NCBI GenBank assembly: GCA_020444265.1
Contig: JAHLLH010000001.1
Span: 186,001 to 250,000, forward strand
Length of the DNA: 64,000 bases
From: a bacterium
Lineage (GTDB): Bacteria > Electryoneota > Electryoneia > Electryoneales > Electryoneaceae
Direction: 5' to 3'
Shown here piece by piece: positions 27,388 to 50,974 of the stretch. The notes under the pieces are model-generated. The model did not search any database, had not been told where the DNA came from, and saw nothing but the letters and a program-made list of their open reading frames with translations. The position numbers and the translations under genes were made by a program. Position 1 is the stretch's first letter. Each line of letters starts with the position of its first letter.

Positions 27388-27981
27388 TTACTTATCTGTG
27401 TGTTGAATTCGCTCGAATCGTTTTCGTGCGTAGTCACGGACATCGTCCGGCCAACTTTCGGTGTGTTTCTGGAAAGCTGCTTTGTCCACTGCATACAAGG
27501 CACGGGTGGCCTCTTCAAATCCGCTGAAGTCGCTGGCCATGTCCCAGAGAAAACGGTCCAAGGCGGCTTGCAGGTCACGACGGCTCACGTTTTCCGATTC
27601 GAGACGGCGCGCCTCGTCCACCAGCCTTCGTAATGTCGCCGAAGCCCCTCCACGTTGATTGGCGAGCCATTGCCAGTGACGCGGTAGCAACGTCACTTCC
27701 TTGGACGCCACTCCGAGCTTCGGGCGGCCCGGTCCCTTCTGCGGCGGTGGGGGAGGATCGTCCCCGACAACCGGGTGAAGGGGGAGACGTTCCAGAACCT
27801 CCGCAATCGATCCACGCAGATCGAGATCAAAGACCTGCCCATTGCTCTCGCGATACATGGCAAGCCGGTCGTTGGTCCTGCTGTCCGTTGCTTTTTTCGC
27901 TGCTGTAGCAACAGTTCGTAAATCACCCTCTGCTACGAGGCTGGTGCCAACAAAAAGGGTGAACTGTTCACTCGTATTCAT
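27388..27981 (-). CDS. DUF2239 family protein
   Basis: 197 residues, ribosome site AGGA seven bases before the ATG. The N-terminus [15 protein letters not shown], the central proline stretch with [17 protein letters not shown], and [27 protein letters not shown] match DUF2239, a family of unknown function; the GRPKLGV segment resembles an AT-hook-like basic patch and the following part a ribbon-helix-helix-like region. Its promoter carries two copies of the TTACCCGGGTAA operator, so it belongs to the small regulon described under the findings. The DNA-binding idea is inference. Confidence 0.85.
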
Positions 27982-28017: not shown

Positions 28018-28060
28018 AATATACCCGGGTAAATTAGTGGAGTCAATATTACCCGGGTAA
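28018..28060 (-). promoter_or_regulatory. Promoter with two TTACCCGGGTAA operators (DUF2239 gene)
   Basis: On the minus strand, TTGACT (28046-28041), a 17-base spacer and TATATT (28023-28018) form a sigma-70 promoter. One palindrome (TACCCGGGTA, 28022-28031) covers the end of the spacer and the -10; a second (TTACCCGGGTAA, 28049-28060) abuts the -35. Their centres are 28 bp apart. The layout is that of repression by blocked polymerase binding. The same block is found at 50473. Confidence 0.8.
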
Positions 28061-28211
28061 TACAGGAGCCGTTAAAGGACTTGGACGGAGCCACGGGGCG
28101 GCCTCTACCGGACTGATCCTTGTGCCACCATTGTGCTCTGGGTAGGTTAGACGCTGAGACGAATTTTCATTCTCGAGTCGCTGCTGTTTTCTCTTGGGAT
28201 TCTGGACGATC

Positions 28212-30593
28212 ATGATCAAGCTGACGCGATCCGCTCTCATCGCCTGCCTCCTGCTGACCCTGGTTCTGCCAGAAGGATTGTTCGCCGACACCATGAACGC
28301 ACGCGCTCTGGGTGAAGTTCAAGGTTGGGTGACTCAGGCTGATGGGACACCCATAGCAGGTGCTGCGGTTCACCTCGTTGGTACATCGTTCGGCGGACAG
28401 ACCGACCTGAGTGGCAGCTTTCTACTCGCACGCATTCTAGCCGGTAGTTGGACAGTGGAGGTGACTCACCTCGGTTATGAACGAAACGTTCTGGCAAATG
28501 TTCGAATCCGGGCAGAACAATCAACCAATCTCGGTAGTATTCAGCTTCAGCCAGCCGTCCACAGCCTCGATCCTGCCACCTGGACAGTCCGTCGCTCCCA
28601 TCTGCAACAGGATGATATCCTCGAGCCATCCAGTTCAGTCGATCTGGCCTCTATTCGTCTTGTGCAACCAGCGAGCAGTGCTGAGGTTCTCCGTGAACAG
28701 CCCGGAATTCAGATTCAGAAGACCAGTCACGGTGGTGGGCACGCCATCGTACGCGGGATGACCTCGAATCGGGTCCTGCTGCTGACCGATGGCATCCGGA
28801 TGAACAATTCAACCTACCGTCTCGGCAACCATCCCTACCTGACCATGATTGACCCGAACGGTCTGGAGAGCATCGACCTCGTGCGCGGACCCGGTTCCGT
28901 TTTGCATGGGAGCGATGCGCTGGGAGGCGCAGTCAACATGATTACCCGGTCGGCGACTTTTGCTGATTCCGGGGTGACTGCGGGTTTCGAGCTGTTGGGT
29001 CGAGTGGCGACTGCGGATGATGAAAGGACTCGTCACGTAACCTTCAGCGTTGCTTCCCGTGTGGCGAGCCTCTTCCTCAGCACGGGATTATCCCAGTTTG
29101 GAGATCTTCGCCGTGGGGAAAACGGGGAAACAGTCATCGATCCTGTGCCGCCCGTTCGGCAGACGCCGACCGGGTTCGATGCAACTCATCTGGTTGCAAA
29201 CCTTAGAGTCCGTTTGACGCCTCTGCTGGAACTGCACCTGGGCCACCAACGGACCAATCGTCCCGAAGTACCGCGTTATGACAAGTACCTCAATGGTGGG
29301 GATTTTCGTTGGCTCTACACTCCGCAACGACGTGAACTGACCTATCTCCGCTTCCGCTTGACCACTGGCGGGACCTGGTTGAAAGCGATAGAGGCGACCG
29401 CATCCCTGCACCACCAGGCGGAAGGGCGTTCCACTCAGGACACGCCCGAGGATCTGCGTACGAACGAGTTCGATGAGGTCCACACCCTCGGTTTCAGCCT
29501 CGTAAGCGATTGGCAGTGGCGTAAGCATCAAGTTGTCGCCGGATTCGACAGCTACCAGGATGCCGTCCAAAGTAGCCGAATCCTTATTGATTTGGCGGGA
29601 CTCCGTTCAGTAGACAACCGGGGTCGTTTCCCTGATGATGCTCGCTATACCTCCAACGGCCTCTTCGTACAGGATCGGTACGAGTTGCAGGATCATCTCG
29701 TTCTGCTGGGCGGTATGCGTTACAGCCAGTTTTCGACACACTTTGATACTCCTGGCGTGGGAATGGTGTTCGAGGATGTCCATTTGAGCTTCCAGGCATT
29801 CACTCTCAGCGGGGGTGTACGGTACGATGTTTCTGGTCCGCTCGCACTCAGCAGCAGCTTATCCCAGGGCTTCCGTGCGCCGAATCTTGGCGATATGGCA
29901 AAGTTGGGTGAGTCGAAAGGTGCCACTTTCGAAGTTCCCAACCGGGACTTGGAACCGGAACGAGTTCTCACTTGGGATGTTGGTCTCGATGTCGAATCCT
30001 GGCTGCTGAATGCACGTCTGCACGGCTACCTCACCCGAATTGGCGGAATCATGAGCAGCGTCCCCACGACCTGGCAGGGAGATGATCAGGTTATTATCGG
30101 GGACGATGTCTACGATGTCCGTCGCAAGGAAAACGTGGGCGAGGGCATCATTCGCGGCGTTGAATGGCAGGGGGTGATCCTGCCGCGTGAGCGTGTCCAG
30201 CTTCGGGCCATCGCGACATGGACCTGGGGGCAGAACACCACCCTCGATGAACCGTTCGATGGTATTCCGCCCTTTATCGGAACAGTTGGATTGCAGTTCA
30301 CATCTGATCCGGGCAGATGGACCATTGAGCCTTACTTGCGATTCGCCGGCAAACAGGACCGCCTGTCGAGCGACGACAAGGATGATGATCGCATTCCCAT
30401 TGGCGGAACTCCCGGCTGGATCACCTGGAACCTGCGCGCACAAACTCCAGAATGGCACGGAGTTCGAGTGACGGTGGCATTGCAGAATCTCACTGATCTG
30501 AATTACCGTGTGCATGCGTCCGGGATCAACGCACCAGGTCGTCACCTGGTACTGACAATGGGATGGCGTCCCGAGGTTGTTCGGATCCAGTAG
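28212..30593 (+). CDS. TonB-dependent outer-membrane receptor with carboxypeptidase-regulatory-like N-domain
   Basis: 793 residues. A signal peptide (SALIACLLLTLVLPEGLFA) is followed by a beta-sandwich of the carboxypeptidase regulatory type (GWVTQADGTPIAGAAVHLVG, about 40-110). The plug domain has LREQPGIQIQKTSHGGGHAIVRGM, then LLLTDGIRMN and DLVRGPGSVLHGSDALGG, and a 22-strand barrel is expected to the end, which finishes in an aromatic-rich strand. It should import a siderophore, cobalamin or similar ligand with energy from TonB; none of the TonB genes are here. A TTG at 28194 is an alternative start. The ribosome site is weak. Confidence 0.92.
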   Translation: MIKLTRSALIACLLLTLVLPEGLFADTMNARALGEVQGWVTQADGTPIAGAAVHLVGTSFGGQTDLSGSFLLARILAGSWTVEVTHLGYERNVLANVRIRAEQSTNLGSIQLQPAVHSLDPATWTVRRSHLQQDDILEPSSSVDLASIRLVQPASSAEVLREQPGIQIQKTSHGGGHAIVRGMTSNRVLLLTDGIRMNNSTYRLGNHPYLTMIDPNGLESIDLVRGPGSVLHGSDALGGAVNMITRSATFADSGVTAGFELLGRVATADDERTRHVTFSVASRVASLFLSTGLSQFGDLRRGENGETVIDPVPPVRQTPTGFDATHLVANLRVRLTPLLELHLGHQRTNRPEVPRYDKYLNGGDFRWLYTPQRRELTYLRFRLTTGGTWLKAIEATASLHHQAEGRSTQDTPEDLRTNEFDEVHTLGFSLVSDWQWRKHQVVAGFDSYQDAVQSSRILIDLAGLRSVDNRGRFPDDARYTSNGLFVQDRYELQDHLVLLGGMRYSQFSTHFDTPGVGMVFEDVHLSFQAFTLSGGVRYDVSGPLALSSSLSQGFRAPNLGDMAKLGESKGATFEVPNRDLEPERVLTWDVGLDVESWLLNARLHGYLTRIGGIMSSVPTTWQGDDQVIIGDDVYDVRRKENVGEGIIRGVEWQGVILPRERVQLRAIATWTWGQNTTLDEPFDGIPPFIGTVGLQFTSDPGRWTIEPYLRFAGKQDRLSSDDKDDDRIPIGGTPGWITWNLRAQTPEWHGVRVTVALQNLTDLNYRVHASGINAPGRHLVLTMGWRPEVVRIQ

Positions 30594-40772: not shown

Positions 40773-42281
40773 ATGAACTACCTCTTGCTCCCGATGTTGC
40801 TTTCGGGGATACTTTCTCTCCTGTTGTCGGGAATCACCTTCCTCTTCCGTCACCGTGAGAGCATCAACCGCATGTTCTCTATTTTCACCCTGCTGCTCGC
40901 CCTGGACAGTTTTGTCTACTTCGCGTGGTACCAGTTTGGCGATGTTGAGCATATCCACATCTGGATGTCCGTGACATCCAGTGCGGGATACCTTGTTCCA
41001 ACTGGCTTGATCTTGTTTTTTTTCGCCTTCACCGGGTACGATAAAAGGCTTGATGAAACGATCCTCTGGATCAAGGCACGTTACTTCCGTAACGGCGCAA
41101 TTGGGATGATCGCATTGATTGTCCTGTTGATATACACCACGGATCTCATCATCAGCGTCCCACAGGATCCGCAAAACGTCTGGGATGTTGACTATGGCCA
41201 GTCTGGTGTCCTGCTGTTCCCGCTCTTCGGAATTATCTTTGTCTACATCTTCACGATGGCTTTTAAAGCATGGCGTGAGGCCGCCGATCTGCCCCGCAAG
41301 AGGTTCATCCTGCTGCTTAGCACGGGGACGTTGGCCTGGATCATTTTTGGGTATATCGGTTCACTTTTATTCCACTCATTCAGTGTAATATGGATGTCCA
41401 TGACCTATGCGGGCATGGCGACAATGGCAGTCTTCTATTTTGTCGCAATCCTGAACTATCAGTCGGACAAGGTGCATGATTTAAACGAGTACCTGGAACA
41501 GAAGGTTGAGGAGAGAACACGCCATCTAGAAGAAACACGTGCTCAGCTGATCCAGAGTGAAAAAATGGCTGCGCTGGGTCACCTGGTCGCAGGAGTGGCG
41601 CACGAGATGAACACCCCGGTCGGCGCGGTCTATAGTACCCACAGTACCGTTTCCAGCGCCGTGCGAAAGCTGAGCGAGGTGCTCGAAAAGGAACATGGAA
41701 TCAGGGTCGAGGACTCGAAGAAGTTAAAGACGATAGCAGCCTCTCTTACGACTGTCGGGGGGGTGATTCAGGCAAGCGGCGAACGGATTACCAGCATCGT
41801 CAATCGGCTGAAAGTCTTCGCTCGGCTGGATGAAGCCGATCAGCAGCGGGTGGACTTTAACGAGTGCATTAACCAATCGTTGGAGATGTTCGAGTTCCAT
41901 CTGAAACCAGGGATCAGCATCAGTAAGGACTTTTCAGAGATACCCCTGGTGACCTGTTATCCCTCCCAGATCAACCAACTCTGTTTCCAACTCCTGACCA
42001 ATGCGAACATGGCAATCGAGGAAGATGGAGAAATATCACTCCACACACATGTGGAGCGGGGGAATGTTGTTCTGACCGTCTCGGACACAGGACGTGGGAT
42101 TGATCCTGCTCACCTGGAGAAGATCTTTAACCCGGGATTCACCTCTTGGTCGCTCAATGTTGGGGCAGGGCTGGGACTGGCCATCTGCTACCAGATTGCT
42201 CAGGAGCACAACGGCACGATCCGTGCTGAGTCGGAGGTGGGGAAGGGAAGCCGCTTCTTATTCACGTTTCCATTGGACTAA
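40773..42281 (+). CDS. Sensor histidine kinase with seven-helix N-terminal membrane domain
   Basis: 502 residues; the ATG at 40773 has AGGA upstream (a TTG at 40740 also opens the frame). Seven hydrophobic helices occupy about 1-230, like the HisKA_7TM sensor. A coiled coil (about 235-265) leads to the His box with His277 (GVAHEMNTPVGAV). The ATPase domain has QLLTNANMAIEE, SDTGRGIDP and GLGLAICYQI. No response regulator is adjacent, so it is an orphan kinase or a phosphorelay input. Its stop overlaps the stop of the convergent TetR gene. Confidence 0.9.
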   Translation: MNYLLLPMLLSGILSLLLSGITFLFRHRESINRMFSIFTLLLALDSFVYFAWYQFGDVEHIHIWMSVTSSAGYLVPTGLILFFFAFTGYDKRLDETILWIKARYFRNGAIGMIALIVLLIYTTDLIISVPQDPQNVWDVDYGQSGVLLFPLFGIIFVYIFTMAFKAWREAADLPRKRFILLLSTGTLAWIIFGYIGSLLFHSFSVIWMSMTYAGMATMAVFYFVAILNYQSDKVHDLNEYLEQKVEERTRHLEETRAQLIQSEKMAALGHLVAGVAHEMNTPVGAVYSTHSTVSSAVRKLSEVLEKEHGIRVEDSKKLKTIAASLTTVGGVIQASGERITSIVNRLKVFARLDEADQQRVDFNECINQSLEMFEFHLKPGISISKDFSEIPLVTCYPSQINQLCFQLLTNANMAIEEDGEISLHTHVERGNVVLTVSDTGRGIDPAHLEKIFNPGFTSWSLNVGAGLGLAICYQIAQEHNGTIRAESEVGKGSRFLFTFPLD

Positions 42282-42913
42282 TCCTGCCGCTCGTCCTGTC
42301 CTATTCCATACCAGAGAGTTCGCACGATCGTTCGGATCTCTTCTTCCGGGAACGATCCGCCGTGCAATCCCAGCCGCTCCAGGAAAGCAAGATTGTGGAA
42401 GGTTGCAAAAAGGATAGTCGCAGTCGGGGCCAACTGATCCTCTCGAAGGACGTCTCGGCTCACGAGCTTTCGCAGATAGTACATGATACCATCATGCATA
42501 TTCTCGAAGGCAGAATCAGGATGTCCTTCACTGAATACCTGCATGTCAAATCTCGGGTGAGTAACCAGTTGCAGCAGCACAGGCATGATCTCACGGAAAT
42601 AGTCCATCATCCTGATTGCAATTGCTTCCAGTTGTAGGAGGGTATCTCCATCGGGTGGAAGCGACTTCAGCAAAGACTCTACATCCATCGGCGGCGGGGT
42701 CATTGCAGCAAAGAAGAGGCGGTCCTTTGTTGGGAAACGCTGATAAATGACTGATTCCGATATACCAGCTTCCTTCGCGATTTCACGTGTGGAAGCACGC
42801 GAACCCTTTTGGATAAAATGGTCGCGTGCTTTCGCAAGCAGCTCTTCGTCCGTCAGTCGTTTGGTTCTACCCACACTTCCCTCTGGTTCCTTCACCGCTT
42901 TATTTATTCTCAC
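42278..42913 (-). CDS. TetR-family regulator of the upstream methyltransferase gene
   Basis: 211 residues from a GTG at 42913 that overlaps the last codons of the methyltransferase gene; an ATG at 42967 and a GTG further in are alternatives, and no strong ribosome site decides. The helix-turn-helix is clear: ASTREIAKEAGISESVIYQRFPTKDRLFFAAM (key part STREIAKEAGISESVIYQRF). The C-terminal ligand domain is unrelated to known drug-binding members by eye. It is encoded second in a two-gene operon; the palindrome at 43841 over the operon promoter is its likely operator. Confidence 0.88.
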   Translation of the reverse strand: MRINKAVKEPEGSVGRTKRLTDEELLAKARDHFIQKGSRASTREIAKEAGISESVIYQRFPTKDRLFFAAMTPPPMDVESLLKSLPPDGDTLLQLEAIAIRMMDYFREIMPVLLQLVTHPRFDMQVFSEGHPDSAFENMHDGIMYYLRKLVSRDVLREDQLAPTATILFATFHNLAFLERLGLHGGSFPEEEIRTIVRTLWYGIGQDERQD

Positions 42914-43823
42914 TGACTTCTGAAGGTAGGTCAGCCACAAGCGCACCAACAACTCCACCATGGCCATACGAGGTTCGTTTTACTTCAAATCCCGAATCCT
43001 TGAGGGCAGTCCCAAGTGTTGGAGCATCAAGTGGGGATTCAGCAGGACCAACCTGATGCAGGACGTAGATCAGAAACATCGGATAGGCCATTGCCCGGAG
43101 GATGGATGTTGGCTTCTGCCAGTCAACAATAACAATTCGCCCTCCCGGTTTAAGCGAACGCTTCATCTCCCGAATGGCTGCTGTATGATCGGATGGTGGA
43201 AAGTGGTGGAAAACCAAAGTTGAAAGGATACGATCCAGCGATGAATCGGTAAAGGGAATCTTATCTGCATAGCCTGTTTTGAAGTGGGGGGGGCGATTCA
43301 TATCTGAAGACTTCTCATTCGCACGATGAATCATTTCCGCCGATGGATCTATCCCATAGCATGCTCCGTCCGCACCCACCTTCTCAACTGCATCCATCAA
43401 CAGGGTTCCTGTTCCACAACCAATGTCCAGTACCTCCATCCCCGGCTGCAAATCAGCCAATTCAAGTGTCCACCTGCGAAACTGAGCTTCTTTTCCCATT
43501 GTGACAATAAATGCGAGCCAATCGTAGAAGAGAGGTAGACGCAGGATCTTCCCCCGTGATACCTGGGGTTCAACTTCAATGTCATCTTCCACTAATGAGG
43601 TTGCTACCCTTTTTCTCCGAAGGTGGAGAATTACTGCAGGCAGAGTCAGGTGAGCGAGGATCAGAGCAATCAGGGCAAGTGGTGTGTACCACAGAGCGAT
43701 GCCATGCAGAAGCAGGGAAATGGAAACTGCTGCAAGGACCAGAAGCAGGGACGAAAGGAGGTAACGTTTTATCCTGATACCACTTGATGGCGGTACGGCA
43801 GATGAGCGAGAATCGGTCGGCAT
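42900..43823 (-). CDS. Membrane-anchored class I SAM-dependent methyltransferase
   Basis: 307 residues; the ATG at 43823 has GAGGGAA upstream. Two N-terminal membrane helices (about 17-60) precede a Methyltransf_11-type domain: EVLDIGCGTGTLL, YGIDPSAEMI, FTDSSLDRILSTLVFHHF, and LKPGGRIVIVDW. It is therefore a membrane-tethered methyltransferase acting on a small molecule or lipid; the substrate is unknown. It is the first gene of the operon with the TetR regulator and is under a consensus promoter blocked by a palindrome. Confidence 0.88.
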   Translation of the reverse strand: MPTDSRSSAVPPSSGIRIKRYLLSSLLLVLAAVSISLLLHGIALWYTPLALIALILAHLTLPAVILHLRRKRVATSLVEDDIEVEPQVSRGKILRLPLFYDWLAFIVTMGKEAQFRRWTLELADLQPGMEVLDIGCGTGTLLMDAVEKVGADGACYGIDPSAEMIHRANEKSSDMNRPPHFKTGYADKIPFTDSSLDRILSTLVFHHFPPSDHTAAIREMKRSLKPGGRIVIVDWQKPTSILRAMAYPMFLIYVLHQVGPAESPLDAPTLGTALKDSGFEVKRTSYGHGGVVGALVADLPSEVSENK

Positions 43824-43840
43824 GGTTCCCTCAATTTTAA

Positions 43841-43862
43841 AATAAGTAAGTACTCGCTTATT
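43841..43862. promoter_or_regulatory. TetR operator
   Basis: AATAAG-N2-AGTACT-N2-CTTATT is an inverted repeat lying immediately downstream of, and touching, the -10 box of the methyltransferase-TetR operon. Confidence 0.75.
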
Positions 43863-43888
43863 ATAAGATTTTGCGAAAGGCGTGTCAA
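43860..43888 (-). promoter_or_regulatory. Consensus sigma-70 promoter of the methyltransferase-TetR operon
   Basis: On the minus strand TTGACA (43888-43883), exactly 17 bases, then TATAAT (43865-43860): both hexamers match the consensus perfectly. A promoter this strong next to an operator implies tight repression. Confidence 0.88.
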
Positions 43889-43929
43889 GCGGACCCGATA
43901 AACACGCCTCTTCCTGGAGGGCTGCGACA

Positions 43930-44364
43930 CTAATCCCCTCTGACAGCCTCACGCAATTGTTGATATACCCCGAGACGATCAGCGATCTGCCAGTGACCGG
44001 TTATCTGCTGGTTTTCATCAAACGTGTAGAGGGTGACCCCAGTCATCTCGATGGGCTTTCCGGTTGCTGGAAAGCCAGGGATGTCGCCAAGGTGTGTGGC
44101 GGTCCAGCTCCAGGTTATCACCACCGCATCCTCCTCCTCGACTATCCTGACGATGGTAAAAGCCTGGTCGGGGAAGGGGGCACGTGAGAGTCGTAGCCGT
44201 TCACGGTAACCCCTCCTGTCCAATTTCTTGCAATGCCAAGGATCACCAGGATCATGGGAAACGGTGTAGGTCGCTGCAACAAATTCCTCAACTGCAGCTT
44301 CCTCCCCTTCATTCCAAACTCGCTTGATAAAGGTGGTTAACCTCTCTTTGTTGCTGGCAGCCAT
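43930..44364 (-). CDS. SnoaL/NTF2-like protein (ester cyclase type)
   Basis: 144 residues, GGGGAGAA before the ATG. The cone-like fold is suggested by the order VWNEGEEAAVEEFVAATYTVSHDPG, RLRLSRAPFPDQAFTIVRI, WSWTATHLGDIPG and a closing WQIADRLGVYQQL (quoted parts shortened: NEGEEAAVEEFVA; DQAFTIVRIVEE). This pattern matches SnoaL-like polyketide-cyclase-type proteins of unknown substrate. Its promoter carries a perfect copy of the ATTTTACCCGGGTAAAAT palindrome, linking it to DUF2239 and the GIY-YIG-like gene. Confidence 0.82.
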   Translation of the reverse strand: MAASNKERLTTFIKRVWNEGEEAAVEEFVAATYTVSHDPGDPWHCKKLDRRGYRERLRLSRAPFPDQAFTIVRIVEEEDAVVITWSWTATHLGDIPGFPATGKPIEMTGVTLYTFDENQQITGHWQIADRLGVYQQLREAVRGD

Positions 44365-44386: not shown

Positions 44387-44404
44387 ATTTTACCCGGGTA
44401 AAAT
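44387..44404. promoter_or_regulatory. ATTTTACCCGGGTAAAAT operator at the SnoaL-like gene
   Basis: A perfect 18-bp palindrome 23 bases upstream of the start codon. On the minus strand a promoter TTGGTT-17-TATTTT runs into it, the -10 overlapping its first bases. Confidence 0.78.
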
Positions 44405-44662: not shown

Positions 44663-45103
44663 ATGCCAAAGCCAGCTACGAAACAATCCACATCCGACAA
44701 GCCTGTTCTGCTTTCAGGGGGCAACCCACAAATCCCCAAGGGGGATGGAGATGAGCCGGTGCAGGCCTACATCAGGGCGATGCCCGGATGGAAAGAGGCC
44801 GTGGGGCGTCAGATTGATGAGCTGATTGTTCGTACGGTTCCGGGTGTAAAAAAAGCCGTACGGTGGAATACGCCCTTTTATGGTATCGAGGGCAAAGGCT
44901 GGTTCGTCGGTTACCATTGTTTTGACCGTTACATCAAGGTGACCTTCTTCGCAGGTACTTCGCTCGATCCGGTTCCACCGGTCGCATCGAAGCAGCCAGC
45001 GGTGCGGTACTTCCACATCCATGAAGAGGACCAGTTGGAGGAAACTCCGTTCGAATCCTGGATTAAGCAGGCAGCAGCAATCGACGGCGAGTTCATCTTC
45101 TGA
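44663..45103 (+). CDS. DUF1801 family protein, copy 1
   Basis: 146 residues with AGGAG before the ATG. The core GWKEAVGRQIDELIVRTVPG, KKAVRWNTPFYGIEGKGWF, and KVTFFAGTSLDP shows the DUF1801 (YdhG-like) pattern: a conserved W-N-x-P-x-Y/F loop and strands. Function unknown; structures resemble small-ligand-binding folds. Starts a two-gene DUF1801 group with the gene at 45148. Confidence 0.87.
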   Translation: MPKPATKQSTSDKPVLLSGGNPQIPKGDGDEPVQAYIRAMPGWKEAVGRQIDELIVRTVPGVKKAVRWNTPFYGIEGKGWFVGYHCFDRYIKVTFFAGTSLDPVPPVASKQPAVRYFHIHEEDQLEETPFESWIKQAAAIDGEFIF

Positions 45104-45147
45104 TCGCAGCACGGAAGGCCGCGTTCTGAAGGCAAACAGGGTGCATC

Positions 45148-45576
45148 ATGGGTAAAATAGAACAGAATCAACCCGCCAGCCGTGAGGCAGTAGCGAAGAG
45201 AATCGAACAGCTCATCGCGGATACCGGTGGTTGGCGTGGGGAGCTGATTGCCGAGATTCGACGAATTGTTCACGAGGTCGATCCGGAAGTTGTTGAGGAT
45301 TGGAAGTGGAAGGGGACGCCAGTCTGGTCGCATGAGGGGATGTATGTTCATGCTAACCCCTTCAAAAACAAAGTGAAAATCACCTTTCTACACGGTGCGC
45401 AGCTCGAAGATCGCGAAAACCTTTTTAATGCCGGTCTGGATGGGAACAAGTGGCGTGCGATTGATCTGTTTGAGGATGATCATCTCGACAGTGCCTCGTT
45501 CAAACGGTTGCTTGGTGAGGCCATCGAGTACAATTCCAGGAACAATGTCGCGAAGAGCAAAGGATCGAATCTCTGA
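45148..45576 (+). CDS. DUF1801 family protein, copy 2
   Basis: 142 residues. DPEVVEDWKWKGTPVWSHEG and KVKITFLHGAQLEDRENLFN (pattern W-K-x-x-P-V-W then K-I-T-F-x-x-G) identify the DUF1801 family. It is 44 bases downstream of copy 1, same direction, and is closed by a terminator. It is only distantly similar to copy 1, so not a recent duplicate. Confidence 0.87.
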   Translation: MGKIEQNQPASREAVAKRIEQLIADTGGWRGELIAEIRRIVHEVDPEVVEDWKWKGTPVWSHEGMYVHANPFKNKVKITFLHGAQLEDRENLFNAGLDGNKWRAIDLFEDDHLDSASFKRLLGEAIEYNSRNNVAKSKGSNL

Positions 45577-50300: not shown

Positions 50301-50472
50301 AATGTGGTCCCACTGTTGGGTGAAAAGATCTGGTGTTGTTCATCTCGAAGCAGACAAGGTACGCAATCCAGCCACGGGATCGAACCGAAGAAACGGATTT
50401 TCAGCCTTCGCATTCCAATGAGACACTCACGTTCCGGCAAATGCAGGATCAAACCTCGGTGGAGAGGTAATC

Positions 50473-50514
50473 TACCCGGGTAATATTGATTTGCTATTTT
50501 TATCCGGGTATATT
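50473..50514 (+). promoter_or_regulatory. Promoter with two TTACCCGGGTAA-type operators (GIY-YIG-like gene)
   Basis: TACCCGGGTA (50473-50482) and TATCCGGGTA (50501-50510) have centres 28 bp apart. Between and over them TTGATT (50486) -17- TATATT (50509) forms a promoter directed to the GIY-YIG-like gene. Layout and much of the sequence equal the DUF2239 promoter at 28018. Confidence 0.8.
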
Positions 50515-50596
50515 TCACGCTGGCTTGTCCGGTTGTTGGACAGGTGATCAAGGGGGGACGAGTTGTCCATAAGGATAGAGAAGGATGGATAGGCAG

Positions 50597-50974
50597 ATGT
50601 CAGGGACCGAACGACGTAAAGAACTGGTGCAAGCCTACAAGCTACGTCCCCAGCGTGCCGGGGTGTTCCAGATCAGGAACACCGCTAACGGTCGCTTTTT
50701 CCTCGGTAGCAGGCTGAACCTCGATGGTGTCTGGAACAAGCATCAATTCATGCTCTTTGTCGGTTCACATCGGAACAGGCAGATGCAGCAGGATTGGAAG
50801 GAGTATGGGGAGGAAGCCTTCCGTTTCGAGATAGTGGAAGAGGTGAAGACTACGGACAAACGTCCCTTCGAAATCGACGAGGAACTGACCCTGCTTGAAG
50901 AAATCTGGATCGAGAAGCTTGACCCCTTCGGTGATATGGGCTACAACCAGACCAAGCATATCCGTCAGGAATAG
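50597..50974 (+). CDS. GIY-YIG-like protein with degenerate active site
   Basis: 125 residues; an ATG at 50585 is possible, but 50597 has AGG and AAGGA at better distances. GVF (22-24) and FLG (35-37) stand where nucleases of this fold have GIY and YIG, followed by NLDGVWNKHQFML, QQDWKEYGEEAFRFEIVEE. The catalytic Tyr residues are replaced by Phe and the Arg usual in the helix (RWxxH) is missing, so hydrolysis is doubtful. Homologues with this NLDGxWNKHKF pattern exist widely by my recollection and are of unknown role. Under the CCCGGG operator pair. Confidence 0.83.
   Translation: MSGTERRKELVQAYKLRPQRAGVFQIRNTANGRFFLGSRLNLDGVWNKHQFMLFVGSHRNRQMQQDWKEYGEEAFRFEIVEEVKTTDKRPFEIDEELTLLEEIWIEKLDPFGDMGYNQTKHIRQE

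Follow-up and report, generated by a model that had tools for sequence, protein, structure and literature searches.

NrdR has a zinc-ribbon/ATP-cone structure, and the NrdR boxes control ribonucleotide reductase genes. Arc, MetJ and CopG are ribbon-helix-helix autorepressors, small proteins that act at palindromic operators. The signal described here, TTACCCGGGTAA, invites comparison with both groups. It is repeated in the window, i.e., the whole stretch of 64,000 nucleotides that was analyzed, and it is a real gene switch that precedes DUF2239 genes across many phyla of bacteria. DUF2239 itself, whose binding to DNA we infer, is most likely the repressor.

Operators and promoters of the window

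The window has two blocks of paired TACCCGGGTA sites, each with a distance of 28 bp between the centres, at the promoters of the DUF2239 gene and of a small GIY-YIG gene, which lie on opposite strands about 22 kb apart. The DUF2239 gene (27388..27981, minus strand) codes for a protein of 197 amino acids, the proposed autoregulator, that belongs to PF09998 (213 bits; gathering cut-off, 25). Its promoter, in the direction of transcription, is TTACCCGGGTAATA-TTGACT-17 bp-TATATT. Operator 1, TTACCCGGGTAA (28049..28060, minus strand), is a 16-bp perfect palindrome just upstream of the -35 TTGACT (28042..28047, approximate to a base), which is located between the two operators. Operator 2, TTACCCGGGTAT on the minus strand (28021..28032), covers the end of the 17-bp spacer and shares bases with the -10 TATATT (28019..28024, approximate to a base), about 40 bp before the ATG. 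A TonB-dependent receptor gene (28194-30593) is divergent from DUF2239, so that the operator pair sits in a shared promoter region.

The second paired-operator target codes for a small protein of 129 amino acids with weak GIY-YIG matches (50585..50974, plus strand), and its promoter reads CTACCCGGGTAATA-TTGATT-17 bp-TATATT in the direction of transcription. All elements are on the plus strand: operator 1, CTACCCGGGTAA (50472..50483); the -35 TTGATT (50486..50491); operator 2, TTATCCGGGTAT (50500..50511); and the -10 TATATT (50509-50514), again after a spacer of 17 bp. The hexamers of both promoters were assigned from the consensus. The preliminary description had proposed that the two promoters share one design (operator, -35, 17-bp spacer, -10, and a second operator over the spacer end and the -10), that the operator centres are 28 bp apart in both, and that a large part of the block is identical in sequence. 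The first two statements were confirmed from the sequence and the third agrees with the 29 identical bases found over 38 positions.

A single operator, ATTTTACCCGGGTAAAAT (44387..44404, minus strand), precedes the SnoaL-like gene. As had been noted before, this copy is perfect; it is an 18-bp palindrome separated by about 25 bp from the downstream ATG at 44364, with TAAAAT as a plausible -10 and no good -35 found. The SnoaL-like gene (43930..44364, minus strand; 144 amino acids; PF07366, 91 bits) is the first in a probable three-gene operon. A methyltransferase gene (42900..43952, minus strand) overlaps its end and a TetR-family gene (42278..42967, minus strand), which could be a target or a rival regulator, is the last. 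The three genes (42278-44364) overlap end to start and, downstream of the single operator, probably form an operon with translational coupling. Two tandem DUF1801 genes (44663-45576) are divergent from this operon. Outside the window, 3.7 kb before its start, a half-conserved site, TTTTACCCGGGAAACA (positions 1496-1516 of locus L005), was observed before a ferritin-like gene. In a comparison with a library of defence genes, DUF2239 and SnoaL had no match and the GIY-YIG protein resembled homing endonucleases only.

Exact or near matches to the 12-mer in the window were located at 28021-28032, 28049-28060, 44390-44401, 50472-50483 and 50500-50511. When up to two mismatches were allowed, the window had eight matches against 1.07 expected, a number that none of 100 shuffles reached. 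The exact 12-mer is found twice in the whole 4.33-Mb genome and so is the paired pattern, in each case with both copies inside the window; the reversed control of the pair gave zero, and about 0.0008 occurrences of TTTTACCCGGGTAAAA are expected in the genome by base composition. Single sites with one mismatch elsewhere in the genome are mostly within open reading frames. The pairs are intergenic and do not lie within genes.

Distribution of the operator pair

A gene-blind scan of 257 Gb of genomes, in which two TACCCGGGTA palindromes had to be separated by 14-44 bp, gave at least 119 stretches. Among the matches listed, the spacing distribution has a maximum at 27-29 bp and a second one at 21-22 bp. 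Of the listed pairs at 27-29 bp, 69 out of 76 are directly before a DUF2239 gene, in Bacilli, Proteobacteria, Bdellovibrio, Melainabacteria, Ignavibacteria and other lineages, compared with 8 out of 71 at other spacings, all eight being at 26 or 31 bp. The seven remaining pairs could be accounted for individually. One precedes a GIY-YIG-DUF2239 operon (L061), another belongs to a DUF2239 promoter cut off at the end of the fetched locus (L087), and a third is at a contig end and has the reverse complement of the sequence of a DUF2239 promoter present in the collection (L093 and L101, respectively). Three precede GIY-YIG (L098), DUF1330-GIY-YIG (L100) and DUF1330 (L127), in genomes that each have DUF2239 elsewhere. 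The last one (L023) is a different palindrome, GTCTACCCGGGTAGAC, from an Elusimicrobia genome without DUF2239 (G049). The pair therefore marks a small set of genes: DUF2239, GIY-YIG and DUF1330.

The number of pairs per genome is low. Among 30 genomes, 27 have one pair, one has two, and two, which carry arrays at 21-22 bp, have none; the reversed control was zero. DUF2239 is what the pair-bearing genomes have in common. The exact pair was absent from 38 other genomes of the window's phylum, a negative result that is true but misleading because the pattern lives in other phyla. A regulon with a duplicated promoter-operator block, as put forward in the preliminary description, is supported and extends far beyond one genome. 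Arrays were also observed in an Ignavibacteria MAG (G062) with 40 exact TTACCCGGGTAA sites and a Bacteroidetes MAG (G063) with 11, both of which hold DUF2239 (control, 0). These arrays (L287-L306) are intergenic, with two to six sites each at a spacing of 21-22 bp; many of them lie upstream of genes and some between convergent genes.

To avoid selection by motif, the question was also approached in the reverse direction by collecting DUF2239 genes by protein. Of 398 Burkholderiaceae genomes that were sampled, 196, or about half, have DUF2239. All eight exact pairs in this family are in DUF2239 genomes, just before the gene, and none was found in the 202 genomes without it. Other Burkholderiaceae DUF2239 promoters have the close operator variants TACCCGGATA and CACCCGGGTA. 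A strict pair at 26-29 bp was present at 30 out of 30 Burkholderiaceae DUF2239 loci, which were the 30 best-scoring loci rather than a random draw, so that the rate may be flattering. Plasmid copies of DUF2239, from Deinococcus, Azospirillum, Paenibacillus, Comamonas and Rhizobium, have the strict pair in 8 out of 13 cases and degenerate second sites in others. No strict pair was found in 754 control windows or 4300 shuffles, nor in nine DUF2239 copies from viral contigs. The DUF2239 genes of contigs classed as viral (L277-L286) mostly have a single site of the CCCGG type. The expectation that the motif would be found upstream of orthologues held for DUF2239 promoters of other phyla and failed for the remaining two DUF2239 genes from the window's own phylum (G005 and G023), where only degenerate remains were seen in place of a strict pair.

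In Acinetobacter, the region upstream of DUF2239 (L275 and L276, upstream of 1501) has a diverged direct-repeat operator in which TACCCTGATA occurs twice, 19 bp apart, and a conserved module of the DUF2239 protein is changed as well (REITLQKKHWDWLDQQSASAS / REITLQKKHWDWL). Divergence of both operator and module fits co-evolution, in one case. The operator was present only where the gene of the proposed regulator was: this was so for 8/8 Burkholderiaceae pairs, the other exceptions hold DUF2239, and the genome lacking the gene (G049) is the one with the unrelated palindrome.

Alignment of 100 promoters gave the consensus TTtTACCCGGgTAATATTGAc-N-tTttTACCCGGgTAaaAtT, with spacings of 26, 27, 28 and 29 bp in 8, 20, 58 and 14 of them. 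These values correspond to sigma-70 spacers of 15-18 bp, of which 17 is the commonest, and the operator spacing is therefore a consequence of the promoter geometry. The pair brackets the -35 and covers the -10 before DUF2239, i.e., the operator overlaps the core promoter of the proposed regulator's own gene.

In other bacteria, the partner genes can be neighbors of DUF2239. In Caulobacteraceae, all 30 GIY-YIG genes that were fetched have DUF2239 311-347 bp downstream and the pair upstream; both sites have at most two mismatches in 20 of these pairs, one site does in nine, and both are degenerate but recognizable in one. The GIY-YIG protein of the window is related to that of Caulobacter; DUF2239 was also detected in Caulobacter vibrioides, which served as a control. 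GIY-YIG and DUF2239 are divergent genes in Azospirillum brasilense and Phyllobacterium. DUF2239 has a DUF1330 gene behind it in Paenibacillus, Eleftheria and Rhizobium, together with an alpha/beta hydrolase gene in Paenibacillus. Given the linkage between GIY-YIG and DUF2239 elsewhere, the window, with 22 kb between its two promoters, seems to hold such a linked pair in split form.

The proposed regulator

The DUF2239 protein of the window includes an AT-hook-like sequence, GRPKLGV (residues 85-91), followed by a conserved helix-PGGAS-helix module (residues 94-126). In 67 sequences, the GRPKLGV region shows no or almost no variation and often reads RGRGRPKLG; the GRP core with basic flanks that defines an AT-hook is present, and minor-groove binding is putative. 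AlphaFold2 predicted confident flanking domains and two helices in the module; in the monomer model the predicted helices span residues 100-107 and 112-148, with no strand at 94-99. No match to DUF2239 was found in the PDB by sequence or structure. A Foldseek search with the module alone returned nothing, and the full model matched only common helical arrangements. The module was first read as a ribbon-helix-helix, a class with strand-helix-helix order in which the strand forms only in the dimer. It was compared by hhalign with nine proteins of that class (the sequences of two of them, CopG and Arc, were verified with PDB entries); the alignment was out of register and did not stand out from shuffled columns, since 3 of 150 shuffles scored as high. 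Membership is not claimed, as the profile and structure searches neither support nor exclude it. In the open-access papers searched, no mention of DUF2239, PF09998 or COG3644 was found; the papers listed for TACCCGGGTA were off-topic by title, and longer operator strings gave an unrelated match only.

The operators, their geometry, their wide conservation and their near-exclusive link to DUF2239, GIY-YIG and DUF1330 are observations. We infer that DUF2239 is the binder, that the effect is repressive and that there is an inducing signal. Taken together, the paired TACCCGGGTA blocks are probably the operators of an autoregulated DUF2239 promoter, with the DUF2239 protein as the binder and repressor. 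The protein would bind each palindrome as a dimer or a higher oligomer, with one operator immediately upstream of the -35 and the other over the -10 and the adjoining 3' portion of the 17-bp spacer. Since the second operator covers the -10, binding would block RNA polymerase; a protein on this site would occlude the -10, and repression is the natural reading. The outcome would be negative autoregulation, possibly relieved by a signal. The same operators would control the partners, the small GIY-YIG protein and the DUF1330 protein (with the alpha/beta hydrolase in Paenibacillus) and, in the window's genome, the SnoaL-methyltransferase-TetR operon through its single palindrome. A point against autoregulation is that a regulator whose single target is itself would be unusual unless the protein has another job. 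The searches for a DNA-binding fold in DUF2239 that gave no confirmation, and the DUF2239 genes on viral contigs and in the window's phylum that have no strict pair, also count against this reading.

A different possibility is that DUF2239, GIY-YIG and DUF1330 are controlled in all of these bacteria by a distinct transcription factor whose gene is unlinked to them, and that DUF2239 is only the best-conserved target of this factor. DUF2239 has no recognized DNA-binding domain and some genomes carry the site before GIY-YIG or DUF1330 only, both of which would suit such a factor. However, across many phyla DUF2239 is the one gene linked to nearly all sites, genomes in which the site is elsewhere still hold DUF2239, and the exact pair is absent from all 202 sampled Burkholderiaceae genomes that lack it. 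A single site in each genome, next to one and the same gene, is, furthermore, typical of autoregulation. We therefore regard the unlinked factor as unlikely.

The preliminary description attributed the three window promoters to one unseen repressor, guessed to be TetR-like, and suggested looking for a TetR-like gene behind the motif. Such a gene exists as the third of the SnoaL operon, behind a perfect operator, and palindromic operators suit TetR proteins. Nevertheless, no orthologue was detected in 30 searched genomes, nearly all of them pair-bearing, where the best hit was 47 bits with 27% identity, and in the seven genomes of its own family its only full match was itself. Repression of all three promoters by this TetR is therefore improbable, and the earlier claim does not stand in the form in which it was made. 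DUF2239 is shared by the pair-bearing genomes, and the repressor is thus most likely one of the three genes listed. A sigma-70 promoter dictates the spacing, with operators at the -35 and over the spacer and -10, and DUF2239 is therefore the most likely candidate for the "unseen repressor". A repeat of chance or structural origin without a regulatory role, as a few 21-22-bp arrays between convergent genes in the Ignavibacteria and Bacteroidetes MAGs might suggest, is barely credible in view of the 27-29-bp peak among the matches listed, the fixed promoter geometry, the association with one gene family across phyla and the absence of pairs from shuffles and control windows.

Comparison with described repressors

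A conserved operator that predicts its regulator would provide a first testable function for the uncharacterized DUF2239 family, and it ties DUF2239 to GIY-YIG and DUF1330 proteins, which are likewise uncharacterized. The promoter-operator cassette is compact, and its sequence seems to be kept across phyla. We offer, tentatively and with considerable doubt, the broader idea that DUF2239 is an unrecognized DNA-binding family with a fold unlike those of known repressors and with one operator kept across phyla, that it governs a small module for stress or clean-up (GIY-YIG, DUF1330, hydrolase and SnoaL), and that in some lineages it was recruited to tens of operator arrays with 21-22-bp spacing throughout the genome.

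With TetR-family repressors, the system has in common palindromic operators over promoters and a TetR gene in one target operon; it differs in that the window TetR has no orthologue in other genomes with the operator pair. Like Arc, MetJ and CopG, DUF2239 has palindromic operators and a proposed autoregulation, and a strand-like EVTLLP is followed by two helices. However, the first helix is short, profile and structure comparisons detected no match, the module is preceded by the AT-hook-like GRPKLG, and there are extra N- and C-terminal domains. While DUF2239 has its own gene as the main target, a core of TACCCGGGTA and no match to a solved structure, it resembles NrdR in being a small family with paired palindromic boxes, spaced on a helical scale over promoters, found in distant phyla and with very few targets per genome.
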